A stretch of 64,000 bases of DNA from the NCBI RefSeq assembly GCF_029633865.1, contig NC_079214.1:16790753-16854752 (forward strand), written 5' to 3'. Origin of the DNA: Lampris incognitus. Taxonomy: Eukaryota > Chordata > Actinopteri > Lampriformes > Lampridae. Made by a program: the position numbers and the translations under genes. Below the pieces are notes generated by a model that worked only from the letters and a program-made list of their open reading frames with translations, did no database searches and was not told the DNA's origin. Positions 1-63,165 of the stretch are shown piece by piece; position 1 is the stretch's first letter, and each line of letters begins with the position of its first letter.

Positions 1-1280
1 TTTGGAATTAAAAAAAAAACAATTGCACAAATGCTCCTTGGTGGCACGATTTCAGACCATAAGTCTTAATGACAATATAGATGGACAATTAAAAACGTCC
101 CTCTCCCTCAATGTACATGTTATTCACCGATGTATTTTCGATTAACCAAAATGCCATAATAATTATGCAGTACTTTTGGAGAATGATTGACGCTGATTCT
201 TACAAGTTACCCCTTTAAACCTGTAGTACACTCTTCCAAGTGCTAACCAGACGGGAACAGCCAATTAACTAGAACTAGCTAGCCTAGCTATTATCTAGAC
301 TCTGATTAAAGACCCAGTGCCAGAGAGAAAGTCATTCAGTTTAAGCACCTTACCCGGGTATCTGCGGTTGTGGCATGAGATTGTCAAGTTAACAAATGTA
401 TATTTATTAGAGAGCCGTAACGCAAATTGTTGCTAAAACTGACTTGGGTTAACCTTGCTCGCTCGCTAACCTAACTGCAGCTTAGCGTTAGCTTGTAAAC
501 TACCCAATACTGGACGACATTAACAGATCTAACATCCCAAATAGCTTTGTTTGTTTTAAATTGTCTTATACCAGTTTGTTACCCAATGATATTCTTCAGT
601 TAAGTGGGTAAAAGTTATGTGCTGTAGCTGGCCAAACGTTTGACTGTGCGTTCACTTTACCCTATGTAGTCGCCGTCGGGCTTACTTGCTAAGTTTAGCT
701 TCGCTTGATATCGTTAGCTAGCTAGCTAGCTAGCAGTCAACCACTCGGACACGAACATCGGTAAAGCACGCAAGGCCTAACAGTTCAATTCCCAGCCGTC
801 TGCTACAGCTTGCATATGTTGCCGAGGGCATCCGAAAAATGCTAAATGTCAATATGATTATTTCAGTTAATGATATCGTCTTACAGTCGTTTCGTTTCCC
901 TTGCCCCTTCTCGATCCTCAGGTGACACAAGTTCTGCTACTCAGGTAGAATCTCGCGAGATCGTGCACGATGTTCCCAAAGTCTACAGGAGCGTTAAAAC
1001 CCGGCTTGATTTCTTAAAAAAAAAAAAGTTAAAAAAAATCCAATTAACGTTTGCAAATATTTGGAATCACATTGTAAACCTAATTTTAAATTTAGCGATG
1101 ACAGTTGTGGATGCAATTTAATAGCTTTTCTCTCCTGTTCCAAGACCAAAGGTAGGTGCAAAGTGAAGGGGACGGGGGCGACTGGGAATGTAGAGCCCTG
1201 GTGTAAAGTCCACTGCTCGCTGTTGACTACTTGTCCAAAAGTATCCTACAGGATAGCTGCTGAAGTTCTGTTACACGATA
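1..1280. other. Upstream region of pbld
   Basis: No coding exon was recognised here. The stretch holds a short GCTA-rich simple tract near 715-735 and A-rich runs near 1018-1040. It presumably contains the promoter and 5' untranslated sequence of pbld, because an in-frame TAG at 1254-1256 shows that translation starts no earlier than 1281. In human the neighbour on this side is HNRNPH3, but no exon of that gene was found. I cannot place a TATA box or transcription start. Confidence 0.4.
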
Positions 1281-4200
1281 ATGGAGATTTCAATCTTTAC
1301 AGTCGATGCCTTCACCAACTTACCGTTCAAAGGAAACCCCGCGGCGATTTGTCCACTCTCGCATGTAAGTCGGCTAATTAAAAAAAAGTCTATTTAAATA
1401 CTGGAATCTCGTCTCCACTATATTTATGATCAGTAAGATTATATATTACGGTGTTGTCAAATCAAAATTAATTTTTTTAAAAAGTGTCTCAGTAGTAAAA
1501 AAAAAAGAAGAAAGAAGAATTCCCGACTTCTCCAATCAAAGTGTGCTGGAGGTGTCAGTGCTCATTTATAATAAAGCAACCCTGCAGATTCTCACAGTTT
1601 GATCAGTTCATCTGGACACAACGTTTATGGAGAGAAACGTGTCATCACTCATCTAAGTGACCTCTCCAGTCTCGACTGACTGCAGGTATCCTCACCCTTA
1701 GAAACGATACAGTGGCATAACGACCGAAAACAACGATCGGTTTCAAATGCAAACTGTCGTCATCATGTAACTAGTTACAATGGCAATGTGTACTATTCAC
1801 AGAGGATTTGGGGAATAGTTGCAATCACAGCATTGAAAGATGGCGACGGATGTACCTTAGACAGCTGTTGTCCTCCTATCTGATCGGCTGGTGCAGCCTG
1901 GGCGTCTTCCTGGCTTTGACAAGCACCCAGTTAGGATAACCACACTTAACCAGGGCCTGTTTAGTGTGGGATTTCTCCCTTTCCCTGGCTGCTGTGTCGG
2001 TGGGCACGTTGTCAGCTCAGTGGTACAGCTCCAGTGGATGAGTCAAGCCTTTAGTACTGATCAGTATGTGTGGGTTTACGGTAAACATCAGTCAAATGTT
2101 CCCCATCACCAGTTGCAATTTCATAGTGTAAGAAGGCTAACCTGTCATTTTTCACATCCTCCCTGGTGTATCATGTACTATGATAACAACACAAACTTGA
2201 TGTGGTTGTCCAGAGTTAATGAGGTCTGTGGTACGTCTGAGATATAATTTTAACCCAGGTGTCAGCCACAAATCTGACTAAACTACTCCCCACTCCACCA
2301 TGAATAGTACACATGGCCATTGTAACTCTAGTTAATGGTCAAAGCAATTTGTGTATGAAACTGATCGTTATGTCACTGTACTGTTTATAAGGGTGGGGAT
2401 ACCTGCAGTCAGTTGAGACTGAAGAGGTCACTTAGATATGTGATGAAACGTTTCTCAATAAACGTTGTGTCCAGATGAACTGATTCAACTTTCTGTGATT
2501 TCTTTACCTGGATTATTTAGCATGCACAATGACAACCCTGCAGAACCTTACTTAAGGTGAAAAAGAAAAACTATCGAGTTTTTACACTCGTCTGCAGCAA
2601 TAACCTGCCACGGTGACGATGGCTTGTCATATTAAATGTTACATTTAATTGGTCGTCCAATTCGGGGATCTGAATTGCTTTTTTTCTACTTAATGGTCAT
2701 GATAAAATACTGAATGGAAATTTCAGTGAAGTTTAATGTACCTTAATATATGTTTTGCAACAGGCGCTTCGTGACGAGTTGTACCAAAGGATAGCAACAG
2801 AAATGAACCTGTCGGAGACAGCTTTCATCACCAAAATCAACCCGTCCGACAACTTCACTACAGGTCAAATAATCAAGTGTAGACCTCATCATGGGTTATC
2901 ACCATGGGCTACAGAGAGGATGGGAGGACAGAGCATCCACACAACAATTCAGATCATTTAGTTTTGAATCATAGGAAGGAAATGGAAAAGGGAGTGGCAG
3001 TTTACCTCTCCACTTATTCCAGTAATTATATGTCGACAAATCAACATCAGTGTGAAGAAATGTAAACAAAAAACAAAAACAAAAAAACCCCATACAGGCC
3101 ATGTTAGCATAAACGAAACCTAGAATAAACAGATATCTATCAAGCTGTATTCTTTTCATTCTTCATGCTGCACTGTGCAGGATGAAGTCAAAGTGTGAGG
3201 GTAGCCTACTATTTATGCATAAGGTCACTGAACAAAGATCAATAAAGTGACAATAAGTAACAAAAGCAGAATAACAGTTTAGAAAGAAGCTATCAGTCAG
3301 CCTCGAGATAGACTGTTACCCATGGTCAGAGCTGTTTATAGTTCAAGGCTAAATGAAAAGTAAGCAAACATGCAGATTCATTACACAAGAGCAGATTTCA
3401 ACGCTGGATAGCAAGGCCACGGTTTGCCAGTGACAACAGTTTATCAAGTCAAATTCCTTGTGTGTGAGGATTTGACAGCAGAGCCAGATGGAGACAACCA
3501 TAGAAGGTTAGATTGATAATGTATTACAAATTAGTAACAGCAATTAGAAACGGGTTGTACTAGACAGATGCAGTAAAGCAAGGGGTAGTTTATAAACCTT
3601 TTAGATTCTCTCTCAAACAAAGTATGATGGGGATTCATTCAGCCCAATATGGAGGATATTATAGAGGATATTACCTTATGGAATTCCAGCTTGGTTTGGT
3701 AACATATCAGCTAAGTTAAAATCACAAATAAACAGACTGATCCACACAGCAATGAAAGTGGTGGGGGTTGAAGGAGCATCCCTCCCTCCAAATGCTCTTC
3801 AAGAAGACCAAGGAAAGTTGAATCAGTTCATCTGGACTTTGAGAGAAACGTTTCATCACTAATTAAAGTGATTTCTTCAGTCTAAACTGACTGCAGGTAT
3901 CCAAACCCTTGTAAACAATACAGTGGCATAACGACCGAAAACGATCGGCTTCATATGCAAATAGGCTTGACCATTAACTAGAGTTTCAATGGCCATGTGC
4001 ACTGTTCACAGAGGATTTGGGAAAGTTTGCAATCACAGCTTTGTAAAATGGCGACAGATATACTCTTAACCCCCCCAGGTTCTGGGATGGTCATTCTCTC
4101 TTCACATAGATGGCATAGATCTGTCGCCATCTTACAATGCGGTGATTGCAAACATTCCCAAATCCTCTGTGAATGGTACACATGAAAGTGATCGTTGGTT

Positions 4201-7200
4201 TCAGGCAACTGTATTGTTTATAAGGGTGGGGATACTTGCAGTCAGTTGAGACTGAAGGGGTCGCTTAGATGAGTGATGAAACGTGTCTCTCAATAAACCT
4301 TGTGTTCAGATGAACTAATTCAACTTTCTTTGATTTTCTAACCTGGATTATTGGGCACGCATCAAGACTCTTTGAGAAGACGATATCTAAACAGGCTATG
4401 AAAATTATTGCTGACCCCTCTCATGTCCTTTATTTAGAATACGAACTGCTCCCATCACATAGACGCCACAGGTTTCCAATTAAATACAGGAAAAGATACC
4501 TGAACAGGTATAAAAATTCTTTCATCCCTCTATCAGTGAATCTCCTAAACTCAGGACATGAGGAGGGAGTGAAATGAGGGGCTGTGTTGCACGTATTTGA
4601 ATGTACTTTATGTCTGCACTCACCTGTGCTATGCACTTTATGTCGATGCCCCCCCTTTTTTTTCTCCCCAATTGTATCTGGCCAATTATCCCACTCTTCC
4701 AAGCCGTCCCAGTTGTTCCATCCCCTCTGCTGGGGAGGGCTGCAGACTACCACATCTCCTCTGATACATGTGGAGCCGCCAGCTGCTTCTTTTCACCTTA
4801 CAGTGAGGAGTTTCGCCATGGGAACGTAGCACGTGGGAGGATCATGCTATTCCCCCCAGTTCCCCCTCCCCCCCAAACAGATGCCCCAACTGACCAGAGG
4901 AGGCGCTAATGCAGTGACCAGGACACATACCTACATCCAGCTTCCTACCCGAAGACACCGCCAATTGTGTCTGTAGGGACGCCCGACCAAGTCGGAGGTA
5001 ACACAGGGATTCGAACCGGCGATTCTCGTGTTTGTAGGCAATGGAATGGACGGATTAGGTGTCCGGGTAGCTACGCTACCCTACCTGGACACTCAATGTA
5101 TGTATTTTTATATGGCAGCCTTTATGGCCTAGACTAATTTCCCTAGCTACTTGGATGCTCAATGTATGTATTTTTATATGGCAGCCTTTATGTCCTAGAC
5201 TAATTTCCCTAGGGACAAATAATCTTTAATCTGGGCGTCCGGGTGGTGTAGTGTTCTATTCCGTTGACTTCCAACATGGGGGGCTTGGTCGGGCATCCCT
5301 ACAGACACAATTGGCCGTGTCTGCAGGTGGGAAGACGGATGTGGGTATGTGTTCTCGTTGCTGCACTAGTGCCCCCTCTGGTCAGGTGGGGTGCCTGTTC
5401 AAGGGAGAGGGGGAACTTGGGGGAATAGCCTGATCCTCCCACGTGCTACGTCCCCCTGGTGAAACTCCTCACTGTCAGGTGAGAAGAAGTGGCTGGTGAC
5501 TCCACATGTATCGGAGGAAGCATGTGGTAGTCTGCAGCCCTCCCTGGATCGACAGAGGGGGTGGAGCAGCGACCAGGACGGCTCGGAAGAGAGGGATAGT
5601 TGACCGGGTACAATTGGGTTGGGAAAAAAAAGGGGGGGGGGTCTTGACTTTTCTTCAATGACCTCTAACACCACTTTAAACAGTATATAGACACTCGACT
5701 TTTTAAAAGAATAAAACACACACAAGATTTCTAATTCACCGTTTTTGCACAGGACAATTATGCACTTATTCTCATTCTAAATGTAATTAGAGTTATACAA
5801 ACATTAGGGATTTGGTACTTATGTGAGCTCCCCTCTTCCAAACGCTCCACCACAATCCCGGTCCTGAAGAACCCTGGGATTACAGGATTTAATGACTCAA
5901 CGTGACATCTTTGGTCATTAAGTCCTTCAAGAGGATGATGCTGGCCCACCTGAAGAACATCACTGGACCTCCTCTAGTTTGCCTATAGGGTAAACGGTTC
6001 AGCGGAGAATGCAGTCAACTTTGGAATACATTACATCCTGAAACACCTCAACAGCCAAGGGATCTATGCAAGGATCCTATTCGTGAACTACAGCTCAGCA
6101 TTCAACACCATAGTTCCAGAATTTCTTCATAACAAACTGAGCCAGCTCAGCTCACCGCAACAAAAGGTGGGGCTGGGGAAAACTCACATTCATCACTTGA
6201 ACCCCACAGGGATGTGTGTTCTCCCCTCTGCTCTTCTCCCTTTACAAACAACTGTACCTCAAAAGACCCCTCTGTCAGACGACACAACAGTCATCAGCCT
6301 CATCCAAGACAGCGACAAGTCTGCTTACAGAAGAGAAGTTGAACTGCTGGAGGCCTGGTGCAGTCAGAACAACTTAGAACTGAACACACTCAAGACAGTG
6401 GAGATGACAGTGGACTTTAGGAAAAACTTCCCCTAGCACAGCCCCCCCTCATCATATTTAACAGCACTGTTGGCTGTGGAGTCCTTTAGGTTCCTCGGTT
6501 CTACAATCTCTCAGGAACAGAAGTGGGAGACCAACATAGACTCCATTTTTGAAGAAGGCCCAGCAGAGGATGTTCTTCCTATGCCAGCTGAGGAAGTTCA
6601 AGCTACCACAGGAGCTGATGATCAGTTTTTACTTAAGACTTCGTTGAGTCTGTCCTATGTACTTCAATCTGTCTGGTTTGGTTCAGCCACCAAGCAGGAC
6701 AGAAGGCTACAAATTATTTTCAGGGCTGCAGAGATCATCAGTGTCCACTTGCCCCCTCTGGAAAGCGCTACAGAGCACTGCGCAAAACAGCCAGACACAA
6801 GCACAGCTTTTTCACACAGGCTATGTCTCTTATGAACCATTAACACAGCCTATAGGGTCTCCCCACGGGGCCGTGCCTATAGTCCCCGGGTCCTATATTC
6901 CCCGGGTCCTATGTTCCCCGATCGGGGAACATAGGACCCTTTCGAAAAAAAAGGGTCCCATATTCCCCGTTTTCCCCTAAAAAGGTCCTATAATCCCCGT
7001 TGCAATAGACACCGGGGAACATAGGACCCTCTTTTGGAAAAAGGGTCCTATATTCCCGGCTGTTTCCAGGGGAACATAGGACCTTTTTCCAAATAAAGGG
7101 TCCTATATTCCCCGCTTATGCCAATCGAGGAACAAACCGGGGAACTTAGAACCCTTTTTGCAAATTATTTCCTTAACGGGTCCAAAATAATAAAAACTGG

Positions 7201-50931: not shown

Positions 50932-50934
50932 GTG
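50932..50934. repeat. Left target-site duplication GTG
   Basis: GTG directly before the transposon is matched by GTG at 54894-54896. Removing the element and one copy restores a continuous LINE reading AGAGCCGTGGGGAGAGG. Confidence 0.7.
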
Positions 50935-51325
50935 TAGTCTAGTCAGTTAAGGCAAAATGGCTGCAAAAAGTCATTCACATTTGAGCCTATGTTTTTCTGT
51001 TAATTTAGAGTCCAATAAAGAAAAAAATGCAAGGAGCCCAAAATTTTAGGTGGGGGAGGTCTCTGAAATGGCCACGCCCACTTTTTAGGCCTGGAAATCA
51101 GTATCTCGGCTCCTGAATGTCGCAGAGAGCTGATCATGGGCTCAAAAGAAGCAGAAGCACCACATTTATATAAGCATTATGAACAAACATATACCCCAAA
51201 ACCTTTACTTTTTCAGATATTTTAAGAAAACTAATTTTTACTGGTCACGTTTCACGTATCAGCTCCTGAAGGTTGTAAAAAGCTATATTTGACATGAATC
51301 TCATTCGCTGCCTATGTTATAAAGC

Positions 51326-54191
51326 ATGAAGCACAATACACACACGAATCATGAGTTTAGAAAATATCTTAGTTGTCTTCAGCTCCATGTCATGAGAATA
51401 GCAGTATCATACACAAGATATCTTAACCCAGGCCAGGTTGCAGTGGGTGGATCCGATCAGCCCCTTTATGCCATCAAGAAGATGATACAGTGGGCCATGG
51501 GGGAAGAGTTTTCTCATTCATACTTCGCATTCATGGGTGGGCTGCACCTTGAGAAGGTTTCTCTTGTCTGTGTTGGGCAGTTGATAAAAGGAACTGGCCT
51601 TGATACCATCTTAACCTCAGCTAATCTGAATATCACAGGTCTGACAACTGCTGTCTGCGATGTGAATTCCATAAAGAAGGCTAGATACTGTATTCAACTC
51701 CTGGCTGTGGTGCTGGCCAAGAAGAGAGATGAAGCATTTCAGGCAAAACGTCTAGAGGACAACAGTTTGACTTGGAGTAACTGGGTGGCCAATGAAAACA
51801 GCCCCATGTTTCACTACTGGAACAATGTTGTTGACACAATCAAGAAGGTTCTTATCTTCATAAGATCCTTTCGAGAGGCAAACTTCATCATGATGATCAG
51901 TGCACTTGAGCAGCTCATTCCTCTTTTCTTTGCACTTGATCATACACACTATGCCAGATGGGCATCAGTGTTTCTTCAGGATCTCAAAGAGCTCAAATGG
52001 AGACACCCATACTTGTTCAAGGAATTTCTTTCAGGCTCTTTCACAGTAAACACCAGAGACAACCCATTCTCAAAGATTGCATGTGATCAAAAGCAGGAAC
52101 ATAACATAAAGGTCATCAAGTCTGACACTGGATATGTCGATATCATCAATCGGGAAGATCAAGAGTTCTTCAGGAAACTCGAACTTGCGCTACCCGAAAT
52201 CCAGCGCTACCTAGATGAGGTCGAAGGTCAAGATCCATCACACGGGCACAAAGAAATGCTGGATTCCTTCAAGGAAACATTTTCAAGCCACACACTCAAG
52301 GTGTACCAGGGTATCCTTACCAACCCGTTCGATGAAGCTCAGTTCATGAGGTTGAACTCATCCATTCCCTTCCCAGATGTCATAAGTAAAGACTCCAGTT
52401 TTGTCTTTACAGTCGGCAAAACTCAGCATGACCAGTTTGTGCAGGAGCGAATTGTATTAAGTAAGAAGGATGTCAATGCAACCATCTCACGAAATGCCCT
52501 GAAACTCCCAAGTTCATGTGCAAAAGTCCAACTCGCTAGCCCTGCAATCAAGCCACCCAAAGGAACCTTTGCAAAGCTGAAGGAGGCCTGCAGATCAAGA
52601 GAAGAAGAGACAAGGAAGTTATTTGGTGGTGAATTCACAGGTGAAACTAATTGATATAAAGTCAGTTATTCAAATATTTTAGATGTTACTTAAGTCTTAC
52701 CAGATTTTTAATACAGTGATATTCATTGATTCAATTTCACATTCAAGTTAATTGATTTGACAGTAAGCCCAAGAGTTACACTTAGCTTAACTATTCATTT
52801 CAATTTCAGGTTTACCCGACGCCTTGTCAACAAAGGATGGAGATATTTATCATAGCCAAAAGTCTCAAATTCTTAAGGACATCGGTGTACAAGTTCAATC
52901 TACATCCTCAGAAGGACTTGTGATAGATTTGTCTGTGCAAGTACGAATCATGGCAAAGTCTCTCACCAAAGGCATGACATTCCAAGACTTTGTAATCAAA
53001 GTGTTGAACAGCATTGCCAGGATCGGTCATGAGAAGAAAGCCAATCGTATTGACATTGTGGCTGACCTCTACCAGAATATGAGTATCAAGACTGCGACTA
53101 GGAAGAACCGGGGATCAGCAGGTAGTTCACAGATGGCTTTCAGTGAGAATGACACCATGCCAGAATCTAAGCAATTCTTTGAAGCTTTTCTGTCTAATGT
53201 AGACAACAAAGTAGCCCTGAATCTAATGTTCGCCAGGATTGCTAAGGCACAAGCGTGGAACTGGGACAAGGAGTTCAGCATCACCTACGGCAGAAAGGTG
53301 CTTGCAAACTTCGGCGAAAGCTTCGAGATCCAGCTTTATGACAGCATAGATATGCTTGAGGAGGCTGACAACCGCATCGTTTGCCATGTGATGCACATGC
53401 TAAACAAGGGGATCAAGTCAGTTACAGTTAGAACAGTCGACTCCGATGTGGTAGTCATCCTACTAGGGTTCACTACACAGTTCCTATCAGTATGTAATGA
53501 CTTGCAACTTATAGTTGACTTTGCAGTTCCTGGCAAACGCCAATTCTACTCAATCACAGAAGCACACAAGAAGCTTGGTGGAGATGTGGCCGATGCCATG
53601 CCTGTGTTCCATTCTTTTAGTGGCTGTGATTCTGTGAGCGCCTTCTTTGGCCACTCAAAGACTGCTCAATACAAAGCCTGGATAAACCACAGTAAGTCCA
53701 CAGAACTCACTGCTGCTTTGAGAGGACTAAGTTGCTGCCCTAGTATCGAGACAGTTAAGGAAAGCATGGAAGTTATTGAGCCCTGGGTAATGAGCTGGTA
53801 CAACAAGACTGGACTGTACAACTGTGTCAGTATAGATGAGCTCAGATTCCAGCTGTTCAAGCACTCAGTTAATGATGAGCTGAGAGACCTACCCCCAAGT
53901 CAGGATGCGCTTCTACAGCATCTGTTGAGAGCTACATTCCAGGCAGGATGGCTGTGGGGAAACAGCCTGCTACAACTCCCTTGTCCCCCTGTCATTGAAT
54001 GGGGTTGGACTACCGAAGGAGAGGAACTCTTCGTCAAGTGGAGCACAGTTTCCACAAGAGATACATTGTCTCAAGTAACAGGGGTGTGTAGTTGCAGATC
54101 TAATAAGTGTACCTCATGTTCTTGTGCTGGCAGAGGGATGAAATGTCTCATTTATTGCAAGTGCCTCAGCAAGTGTTTGAATCCAGTCTGA
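51326..54191 (+). CDS. Academ-like transposase with FEN1/XPG-type nuclease signature (898 residues, two exons)
   Basis: Exon 1 is 51326-52640, the intron 52641-52809 (GT-AG, 169 bp, phase 1), exon 2 52810-54191; no stop or frameshift in 2,697 nt. The N-terminal part has RYLNPGQ, SDQPLYA (D44) and FMGGLHLE (H74), a pattern I recall from large uncharacterised proteins of fish and marine invertebrates. Exon 2 holds IDIVADLYQNMSIK (about 519-532), then three acidic clusters in FEN1/XPG order: LEEADNR (E622, E623, D625), TVDSDVVVILLG (D649, D651) and SFSGCDSVSAFFGHSK (D712). The last resembles the GCDY...GIG segment before the helix-2-turn-helix of flap endonucleases. The C-terminus is a cysteine cluster, VCSCRSNKCTSCSC then KCLIYCKC. 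Expected role: nuclear nuclease excising or integrating the element. The ATG at 51326 has an in-frame TAA just upstream. Relatives that I recall are longer, so the N-terminus may be lost. An AATAAA is at 54210. Confidence 0.7.
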
Positions 54192-54209
54192 TGGGATGTG
54201 TGAGGTTAA

Positions 54210-54215
54210 AATAAA
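54210..54215 (+). promoter_or_regulatory. Polyadenylation signal of the transposon gene
   Basis: AATAAA begins 19 bp after the transposase stop codon, followed by a T-rich run. Confidence 0.5.
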
Positions 54216-54893
54216 GATTTTTTTGGACCTCACATGGTTTGCTTTGTTTCTTTGGTGGTTACTGGGTTCCTCCTCTTATAACAAAGAGTCAACTTGAATA
54301 CTAGCACTCCATGAGTAGATGTAACACTTTTACTCAAACAAACTGTATAGCCTTCTTGCACAGATTTGGCTAAAGTTGATTGCATGCTGCTGATCAATTC
54401 AATGGAAAAAAGAACATGTTCATGAATAGCTCAAAACGTGAAGGTTTTAGGGCATACAGTATATTTGTTCAGAGCACTAATATAAATAGTTATTTCCACA
54501 TCTTTTGAGCCCAATATCAACTCGGGGCAACCTCCGAGAGCTGAGCCTGAGATGGGCGTGGCCATGTATGTGACCAGTGAAAATTAGTTTTTTGTAAATA
54601 CCTGAAAAAGTAAAGGTTTTGGGGTATATGTTTGTTCATAATGCTTATATAAATGTGGTGCTTCTGCTTCTTTTGAGCCCATGATCAGCTCTCTGCGACA
54701 TTCAGGAGCCGAGATACTGATTTCCAGGCCTAAAAAGTGGGCGTGGCCATTTCAGAGACTTCCCCCACCTAAAATTTTGGGCTCCTTGCATTTTTTTCTT
54801 TATTGGACCCTAAATTAACAGAAAAACATTGGCTCAAATGTGAATGACTTTTTGCAGCCTTGACCCCATATTTGCCCTTAACTGACCAGACTA

Positions 54894-54896
54894 GTG
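54894..54896. repeat. Right target-site duplication GTG
   Basis: Direct repeat of 50932-50934. Confidence 0.7.
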
Positions 54897-55250
54897 GGGA
54901 GAGGACACATCCCCGGGGAGCATCAGTGCTGACTGTCCGTATACCAGAAGTAACTTCCCCCAGCCTAACCTGCTGTTTCCTGCCAGTCTGGAAGCTATCC
55001 GCTGAAAGATGGCGGGGGATATAGTGAGTTGGGAGAGTTTGCCGGAGAGGATTTCTGGAATGATGGTGTTGAACACTGAGCTGGAGTCCACAAACGGGAT
55101 CCTTGCATATGTCACTGGGCCATATGTCACTGGGCAGTCTAGGTGTTGCAGGACGTAGTGCAGTCCCATGCTGACTGCATCATCCACTGAACTGTTTGCA
55201 CGGTAGCTAAAGTGCAGGGGGTCCAGCAGGTGGTGCTGTCCTCAGATACT
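54897..55250 (-). mobile_element. Antisense LINE, right part after the transposon
   Basis: The complement encodes an upstream part of the same reverse transcriptase (SVDDAVSMGLHYVLQHLD, then FVDSSSVFNTIIPEIL). It continues the LINE interrupted at 50934. A short duplicated CATATGTCACTGGGC lies near 55110-55135. Confidence 0.75.

Positions 55251-55415: not shown

Positions 55416-55536
<121 letters not shown>

Positions 55537-62679: not shown

Positions 62680-63165
<486 letters not shown>

Follow-up and report, generated by a model that had tools for sequence, protein, structure and literature searches.

Ds and KP are internally deleted derivatives of cut-and-paste transposons, and their spread is attributed to an enzyme supplied in trans. 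For the transposons that come closest to the element described here, it is reported that Academ is classed among the DDE/D superfamilies (PMC10294476), that Academ copies occur in zebrafish, medaka and stickleback (PMC4746887), and that the AcademX lineage (Kojima 2020) makes target-site duplications of 3-4 bp and encodes a nuclease, whereas the AcademH lineage makes duplications of 9-10 bp and encodes a helicase (PMC10045372). The author relates the difference in duplication length to the encoded nuclease versus helicase (PMC10045372). Our literature search for Academ together with XPG found no paper, and a search for an Academ transposition assay found none, the papers retrieved concerning other transposons by title.

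Here, we analyzed a transposon in a 64,000-nucleotide stretch of the Lampris incognitus genome (hereafter, the window). Overall, the element is very probably a non-autonomous, internally deleted copy, of a form that we call type A, which belongs to a very young AcademX-type family and depends for its movement on transposase that full-length copies supply in trans.

The ends and the insertion site of the window copy are clear (Table 1). Its terminal inverted repeats are about 315-324 bp long and 93.5% identical over 324 columns, several of the differences between them being short indels close to the tip, and a GTG triplet stands on either flank. The first 40 bases of the copy have 150 exact occurrences genome-wide. 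When the flanks were joined without the element, a stop-to-stop frame of 149 residues ran across the junction, which we take to resemble a LINE reverse transcriptase. The joined 118-bp empty site gave 1,238 candidates in the genome, and the best 40 of them all cross the junction, with 91-94% identity. Within the element, the spliced frame (one GT..AG intron) encodes 898 residues with zero internal stops, and the acidic motifs EEAD, DSD and GCD start at residues 622, 649 and 710 of this protein. The initial annotation had described inverted repeats of about 315 bp, a 3-bp GTG duplication, a LINE that is continuous once the element is removed, a two-exon gene of 898 codons without stops, and three acidic clusters with a C-terminal cysteine cluster; each of these descriptions held, and all the clusters were located in the last exon.

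Beside the right inverted repeat lies a degenerate extra copy of the inner part of the repeat, present in the siblings too, which may carry putative transposase binding sites. Elsewhere in the window, we noted a tandem repeat of two 66-bp units (5081-5212), a (TG)n array (55418-55536) and a (CA)n array (62951-63027). An Rfam search over the window gave nothing at the gathering score.

Table 1. Features of the window copy, its full-length relatives and the diverged family. Positions refer to the window unless stated otherwise.
Feature	Position	Strand	Remark
Left target-site duplication, GTG	50932..50934	.	Exact match to right-hand GTG
Left terminal inverted repeat	50935..51248	+	Repeat comparison
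Spliced open frame of the window copy	51326-52640 + 52810-54191		898 residues
17 former leader codons	51326..51376	+	In-frame fusion caused by the deletion
Deletion junction, 2-bp overlap (CT)	51377..51378	+	2,853 bp of the full-length element gone
Third transposase exon, remaining 3' part	51379..52640	+	Below-cut-off DUF6589 match
Candidate second acidic residue (D), third-exon remnant	51455-51457	+	
Candidate third acidic residue (E), third-exon remnant	52097-52099	+	
Last intron	52641..52809	+	GT..AG
Last exon	52810..54191	+	XPG/FEN1-like acidic motifs and C-terminal cysteine cluster
Last-exon motif VIDLS	from 52920		
Last-exon motif RIDIVAD	from 53046		
Last-exon motif EEAD	53358-53369		
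Last-exon motif DSD	53439-53447		
Last-exon motif GCD	53622-53630		
Degenerate extra copy (~72%), inner inverted-repeat part	54425..54523	-	Beside right repeat; in siblings too
21-bp deletion site, private to the window copy	54552..54553	.	Gap without counterpart in the other 21 aligned type A copies
Right terminal inverted repeat	54570..54893	-	
Right target-site duplication, GTG	54894..54896	.	
Interrupted LINE, part	54897..55241	-	Continues left of 50934; joined frame and empty-site matches
Full-length gene, four exons (element coordinates)	1152-1190; 1335-1885; 1987-4559; 4729-6110		GT..AG at all three introns
Diverged-family copy L052 (own coordinates)	1-3864		
Diverged-family copy L053 (own coordinates)	1-3867		

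The 1.48 Gb genome was searched with the left inverted repeat as query, which returned 310 candidates, and the best 40 were scored; minus the window copy itself, these provided a sample of 39 fetched siblings. In four of the 39, about 2.85 kb of additional sequence stands at element position 444. Refetched with wider flanks, three of these four long copies are 6,833 bp in length with the duplications CTG, TAA and TTG, and L049, the fourth, is missing its right tip. The two copies that were read through, L048 and L050, contain an open spliced gene of four exons encoding 1,514 residues, the exon joins being a model from sequence; the last-exon frame of L051 is shorter, at 424 instead of 466. In the 1,514-residue protein, the N-terminal part holds two Cys/His modules (CIVC..HKSC, then CFYC..HRKCH), the middle contains in order DDN (D483), SDQPLY (D660), GGLH and QEHN (E874), and the C-terminal part contains in order VIDLS, RIDIVAD, EEAD, DSD, GCD and a cysteine-rich tail.

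Comparison with these copies revealed what the window copy has lost. Type A siblings measure 3,980 bp versus 6,833 bp for the full-length element; thus, 2,853 bp are missing, corresponding to element positions 445-3297 or, equally, 443-3295, and the window copy carries a further private gap of 21 bp. Its protein begins to match at residue 18, which is residue 634 of the full-length protein, and over the 882 positions compared, including the stop, it shows one difference from L050 and three from L048. The first 17 codons of the window frame are the leader codons (MKHNTHTN...) that open a short frame upstream of the gene in L050. Residues 1-633 of 1,514 are therefore lacking, so that a complete transposase gene is absent, and the loss includes both Cys/His modules and the first of the candidate DDE/D residues.

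The type A structure was found in 21 of the 39 siblings, and L040 is a type A copy with a further deletion (1/39). Other deletion forms, in full-length coordinates, are 2306/5879 (7/39), 637/3725 (3/39), 364/2935 (2/39) and 1674/4255 (1/39). Of these, 2306/5879 (L019, L027, L028, L030, L031, L036 and L039) keeps the first exons but has lost the candidate DDE/D and XPG residues. All forms seen among the siblings share only two stretches of the full-length element, its first 364 bp and its last 926 bp, which may set a first bound on the sequences required in cis. An exact 3-bp duplication, comprising 25 different triplets, flanks 34 of the 35 siblings with both ends among the 39 fetched. Because the scored set is the best 40 of 310 inverted-repeat matches and is skewed accordingly, these duplications, like the ages given below, reflect young copies. 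The sole exception, L031, has no duplication at its assumed end. Its right end (near base 3560) bears an extra tandem repeat of the last 16 bp, followed by AGA, which is ambiguous within an AG repeat; the tip repeat is perhaps a trace of aberrant end processing.

The genome search with the inverted repeat, which the initial annotation had proposed as a check, thus yielded near-identical copies and 3-bp duplications, and the duplications support its description of the element as Academ-like. Within the superfamily, the 3-bp duplications and the nuclease-like region fit the AcademX type, an assignment made from these features. The likeness to AcademX extends to 3-bp duplications, inverted repeats and one large gene with DDE/D-like and C-terminal nuclease-like regions, and the window copy differs in being a derivative from which a deletion has removed the N-terminal 633 residues. 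With AcademH, the family shares the superfamily, but its duplications of 3 bp (34/35) differ from the 9-10 bp reported for AcademH (PMC10045372). Unlike in AcademH, no helicase in exons 2-4 was among the Pfam matches up to E = 1.

We next consider the two putative catalytic regions. The Pfam family DUF6589 (PF20231), itself a family of unknown function, matches the DDE/D-like region of the window family, scoring 23.1 bits in both the window and the L050 proteins, under the cut-off of 27; the other Pfam matches were at chance level. Searching the genome with DUF6589 gave eight matches, all above the cut-off, and one of them is a copy of the window's family (27.3 bits). A further two, L052 and L053, belong to a second Academ-like family that has diverged from the window's, and L053 reaches 40 bits, above the cut-off. 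Their parts follow the same order as in the window family, with DUF6589 and then HEE[AV]D, DTD, GCD and GIGKRTA. The DDE/D-like parts of the window family and L052 align over 124 residues with 35% identity, and D660 and E874 (D469 and E683 in alignment numbering) are invariant with L052 and L053. BLASTP between the window family and L052 gave an alignment confined to parts of the later DDE/D region; the first aspartate (D483; TDDNIN in one family, ANDNID in the other) is aligned to the relative by MAFFT only, with a shared DNI motif. We regard D483, D660 and E874 as candidates for a DDE/D site and, on motif-level support, DUF6589 as a candidate for the catalytic region of Academ-type transposases. 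This last link is drawn here, and a literature search for the term DUF6589 found no paper.

The nuclease of Academ is of the XPG type, and the order of the acidic motifs in the last exon is that of FEN1. The assignment of the C-terminal part as XPG/FEN1-like is made by this motif order and should be read at the motif level. Profile and sequence searches lent it no support. Pfam scans and PDB sequence searches gave no nuclease or transposase, each of two PDB searches returning one chance-level match, and an NCBIfam search gave no match. In an hhalign comparison with the host XPG_I exons, there was no signal, as 148 of 200 shuffles scored no lower than the real comparison; the profile comparison with PIN/XPG that the initial annotation had suggested therefore did not bear its reading out. 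A single-sequence fold of the last exon alone, made without relatives, had a mean pLDDT of 38.9, too low to be of use, and relatives sought in viral and prokaryote genome contigs yielded none that was confirmed. The silence of Pfam, the PDB sequences and hhalign favors the alternative that the C-terminal part is no nuclease of the XPG/FEN1 type and that its acidic motifs reflect chance or another fold. However, the FEN1-order acidic pattern, which was defined after inspection of the sequence, appeared in only two of 20,000 shuffles, and EE.D, D.D and GCD do not vary when two copies of a 26-28% identical relative are aligned with the window family. Moreover, this relative has GIGKRTA in both copies and VFD...KSG...KR in one, both of which resemble FEN1 motifs. 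We consider it unlikely that the C-terminal part is of another kind.

The initial annotation had described the Academ transposase as carrying an XPG-type nuclease and had placed it among DNA transposons that use a PIN/XPG-fold nuclease. The motifs are present in the C-terminal part, but a nuclease acting alone is doubtful because, upstream of it, there are candidate DDE/D residues as well as a DUF6589 match of borderline score and because Academ is treated as DDE/D in PMC10294476.

The type A form is both abundant and young. A 40-mer spanning its junction has 79 exact occurrences in the genome, compared with 23 for the undeleted right edge. Matched by place, these 23 sites include seven with a 552-residue frame (another deletion form), eleven with an 867-residue frame, one of which has an internal TAG, and five with frames of other lengths. 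A search with the exon-1 protein gave 1,985 candidates. The 99 that were scored were tallied by hand as 75, 11, 7 and 6; the 75 share the type A frame of 442-443 residues, which in two of them contains an internal stop. Across 3,980 columns, each of the 22 aligned type A copies lies 0-7 substitutions from their majority, and the window copy differs by two substitutions and its one 21-bp gap. If neutral change proceeds at a few per 10^9 sites per year, this would correspond to an age on the scale of some hundred thousand years, in a sample biased to young copies. Judged from its sequence, the window copy is a very recent insertion, and in this respect the initial annotation, which had called it young, was well founded.

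All 22 aligned copies have an open 443-residue frame, and the length of the last-exon frame differs in five of them. Private coding changes in type A comprise 27 non-synonymous, 10 synonymous and no stop changes, and the neutral shares are 0.70, 0.27 and 0.04. Since the private changes match the neutral shares, the open frame requires no selection, and we rejected purifying selection as its cause. The shared coding cells (eight at three sites, six non-synonymous and two synonymous) are too few for a selection test.

These numbers bear on whether the truncated type A protein itself has a role in trans, either by repressing transposition or by adding to the supply of nuclease, and so aids the spread of type A. 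As a repressor, it would bring half of the DDE/D domain and the XPG-like part into competition within the complex. Both the 79 junctions against 23 undeleted edges and the frame that is open in 22 of 22 copies speak for such a role. Nevertheless, the private changes fit neutrality, the last-exon deviations and the two internal stops described above tell against it, and the 2306/5879 form has spread without the candidate DDE/D and XPG residues; youth alone accounts for the open frames. We regard a trans-acting type A protein as quite improbable. Likewise improbable to us is that its abundant open frame provides a half-DDE/D, XPG-like protein that tunes the transposition of the whole family in trans. 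If this were true, the transposon would have split two enzyme activities between two element types.

That the window copy is complete and autonomous, with its 898-residue protein working as an Academ transposase, is scarcely credible: the inverted repeats, the duplication and the open two-exon frame are all there and no other form is as common (75 of the 99 scored exon-1 matches), but the 6,833-bp copies add 633 N-terminal residues to the gene, part of that region aligns by MAFFT with the diverged relative, and the window frame begins in former leader sequence. The initial annotation had called the copy apparently complete and thought that it may still encode active enzyme. Because the missing 633 N-terminal residues include the Cys/His modules and the acidic residue that is the first DDE/D candidate, neither statement is supported, and a complete autonomous copy was rejected given the 6,833-bp copies, whose four-exon gene was read through in two.

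We now return to the internally deleted copy moved in trans, for which we provide a putative mechanism. Type A would have a single origin in one 2,853-bp deletion event, and its copies would be moved in trans by transposase from full-length copies. This transposase would bind the element ends, probably by means of its N-terminal Cys/His modules, which are missing from type A; its DDE/D site, with D483, D660 and E874 as candidates, would cut and join strands, and its C-terminal XPG-like domain would cleave the second strand or trim flaps. The shortened frame of type A would largely be a passive remnant that has stayed open owing to the youth of the copies. Type A copies with one common deletion occupy many different sites, with both ends intact and with 3-bp duplications. 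Since these one-deletion copies have spread widely and forms without other parts of the gene have spread as well, the coding parts seem dispensable in cis. From these patterns in the sequence, we infer that type A probably moves in trans and that the family may be presently active. In having the same ends, an internal deletion and a spread attributed to an enzyme supplied in trans, type A resembles Ds and KP; it differs from them in that a long open frame still spans its C-terminal part.

Overall, the window holds an ordinary but well-resolved case, namely, a very young, internally deleted and non-autonomous AcademX-type copy whose complete relatives are found in the same genome. The claim of completeness for this copy is corrected, and the complete copies sit elsewhere in the genome of the same fish. 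With open full-length genes and several deletion forms that have spread, this young family offers material for testing the role of an XPG-like nuclease beside a DDE/D site.
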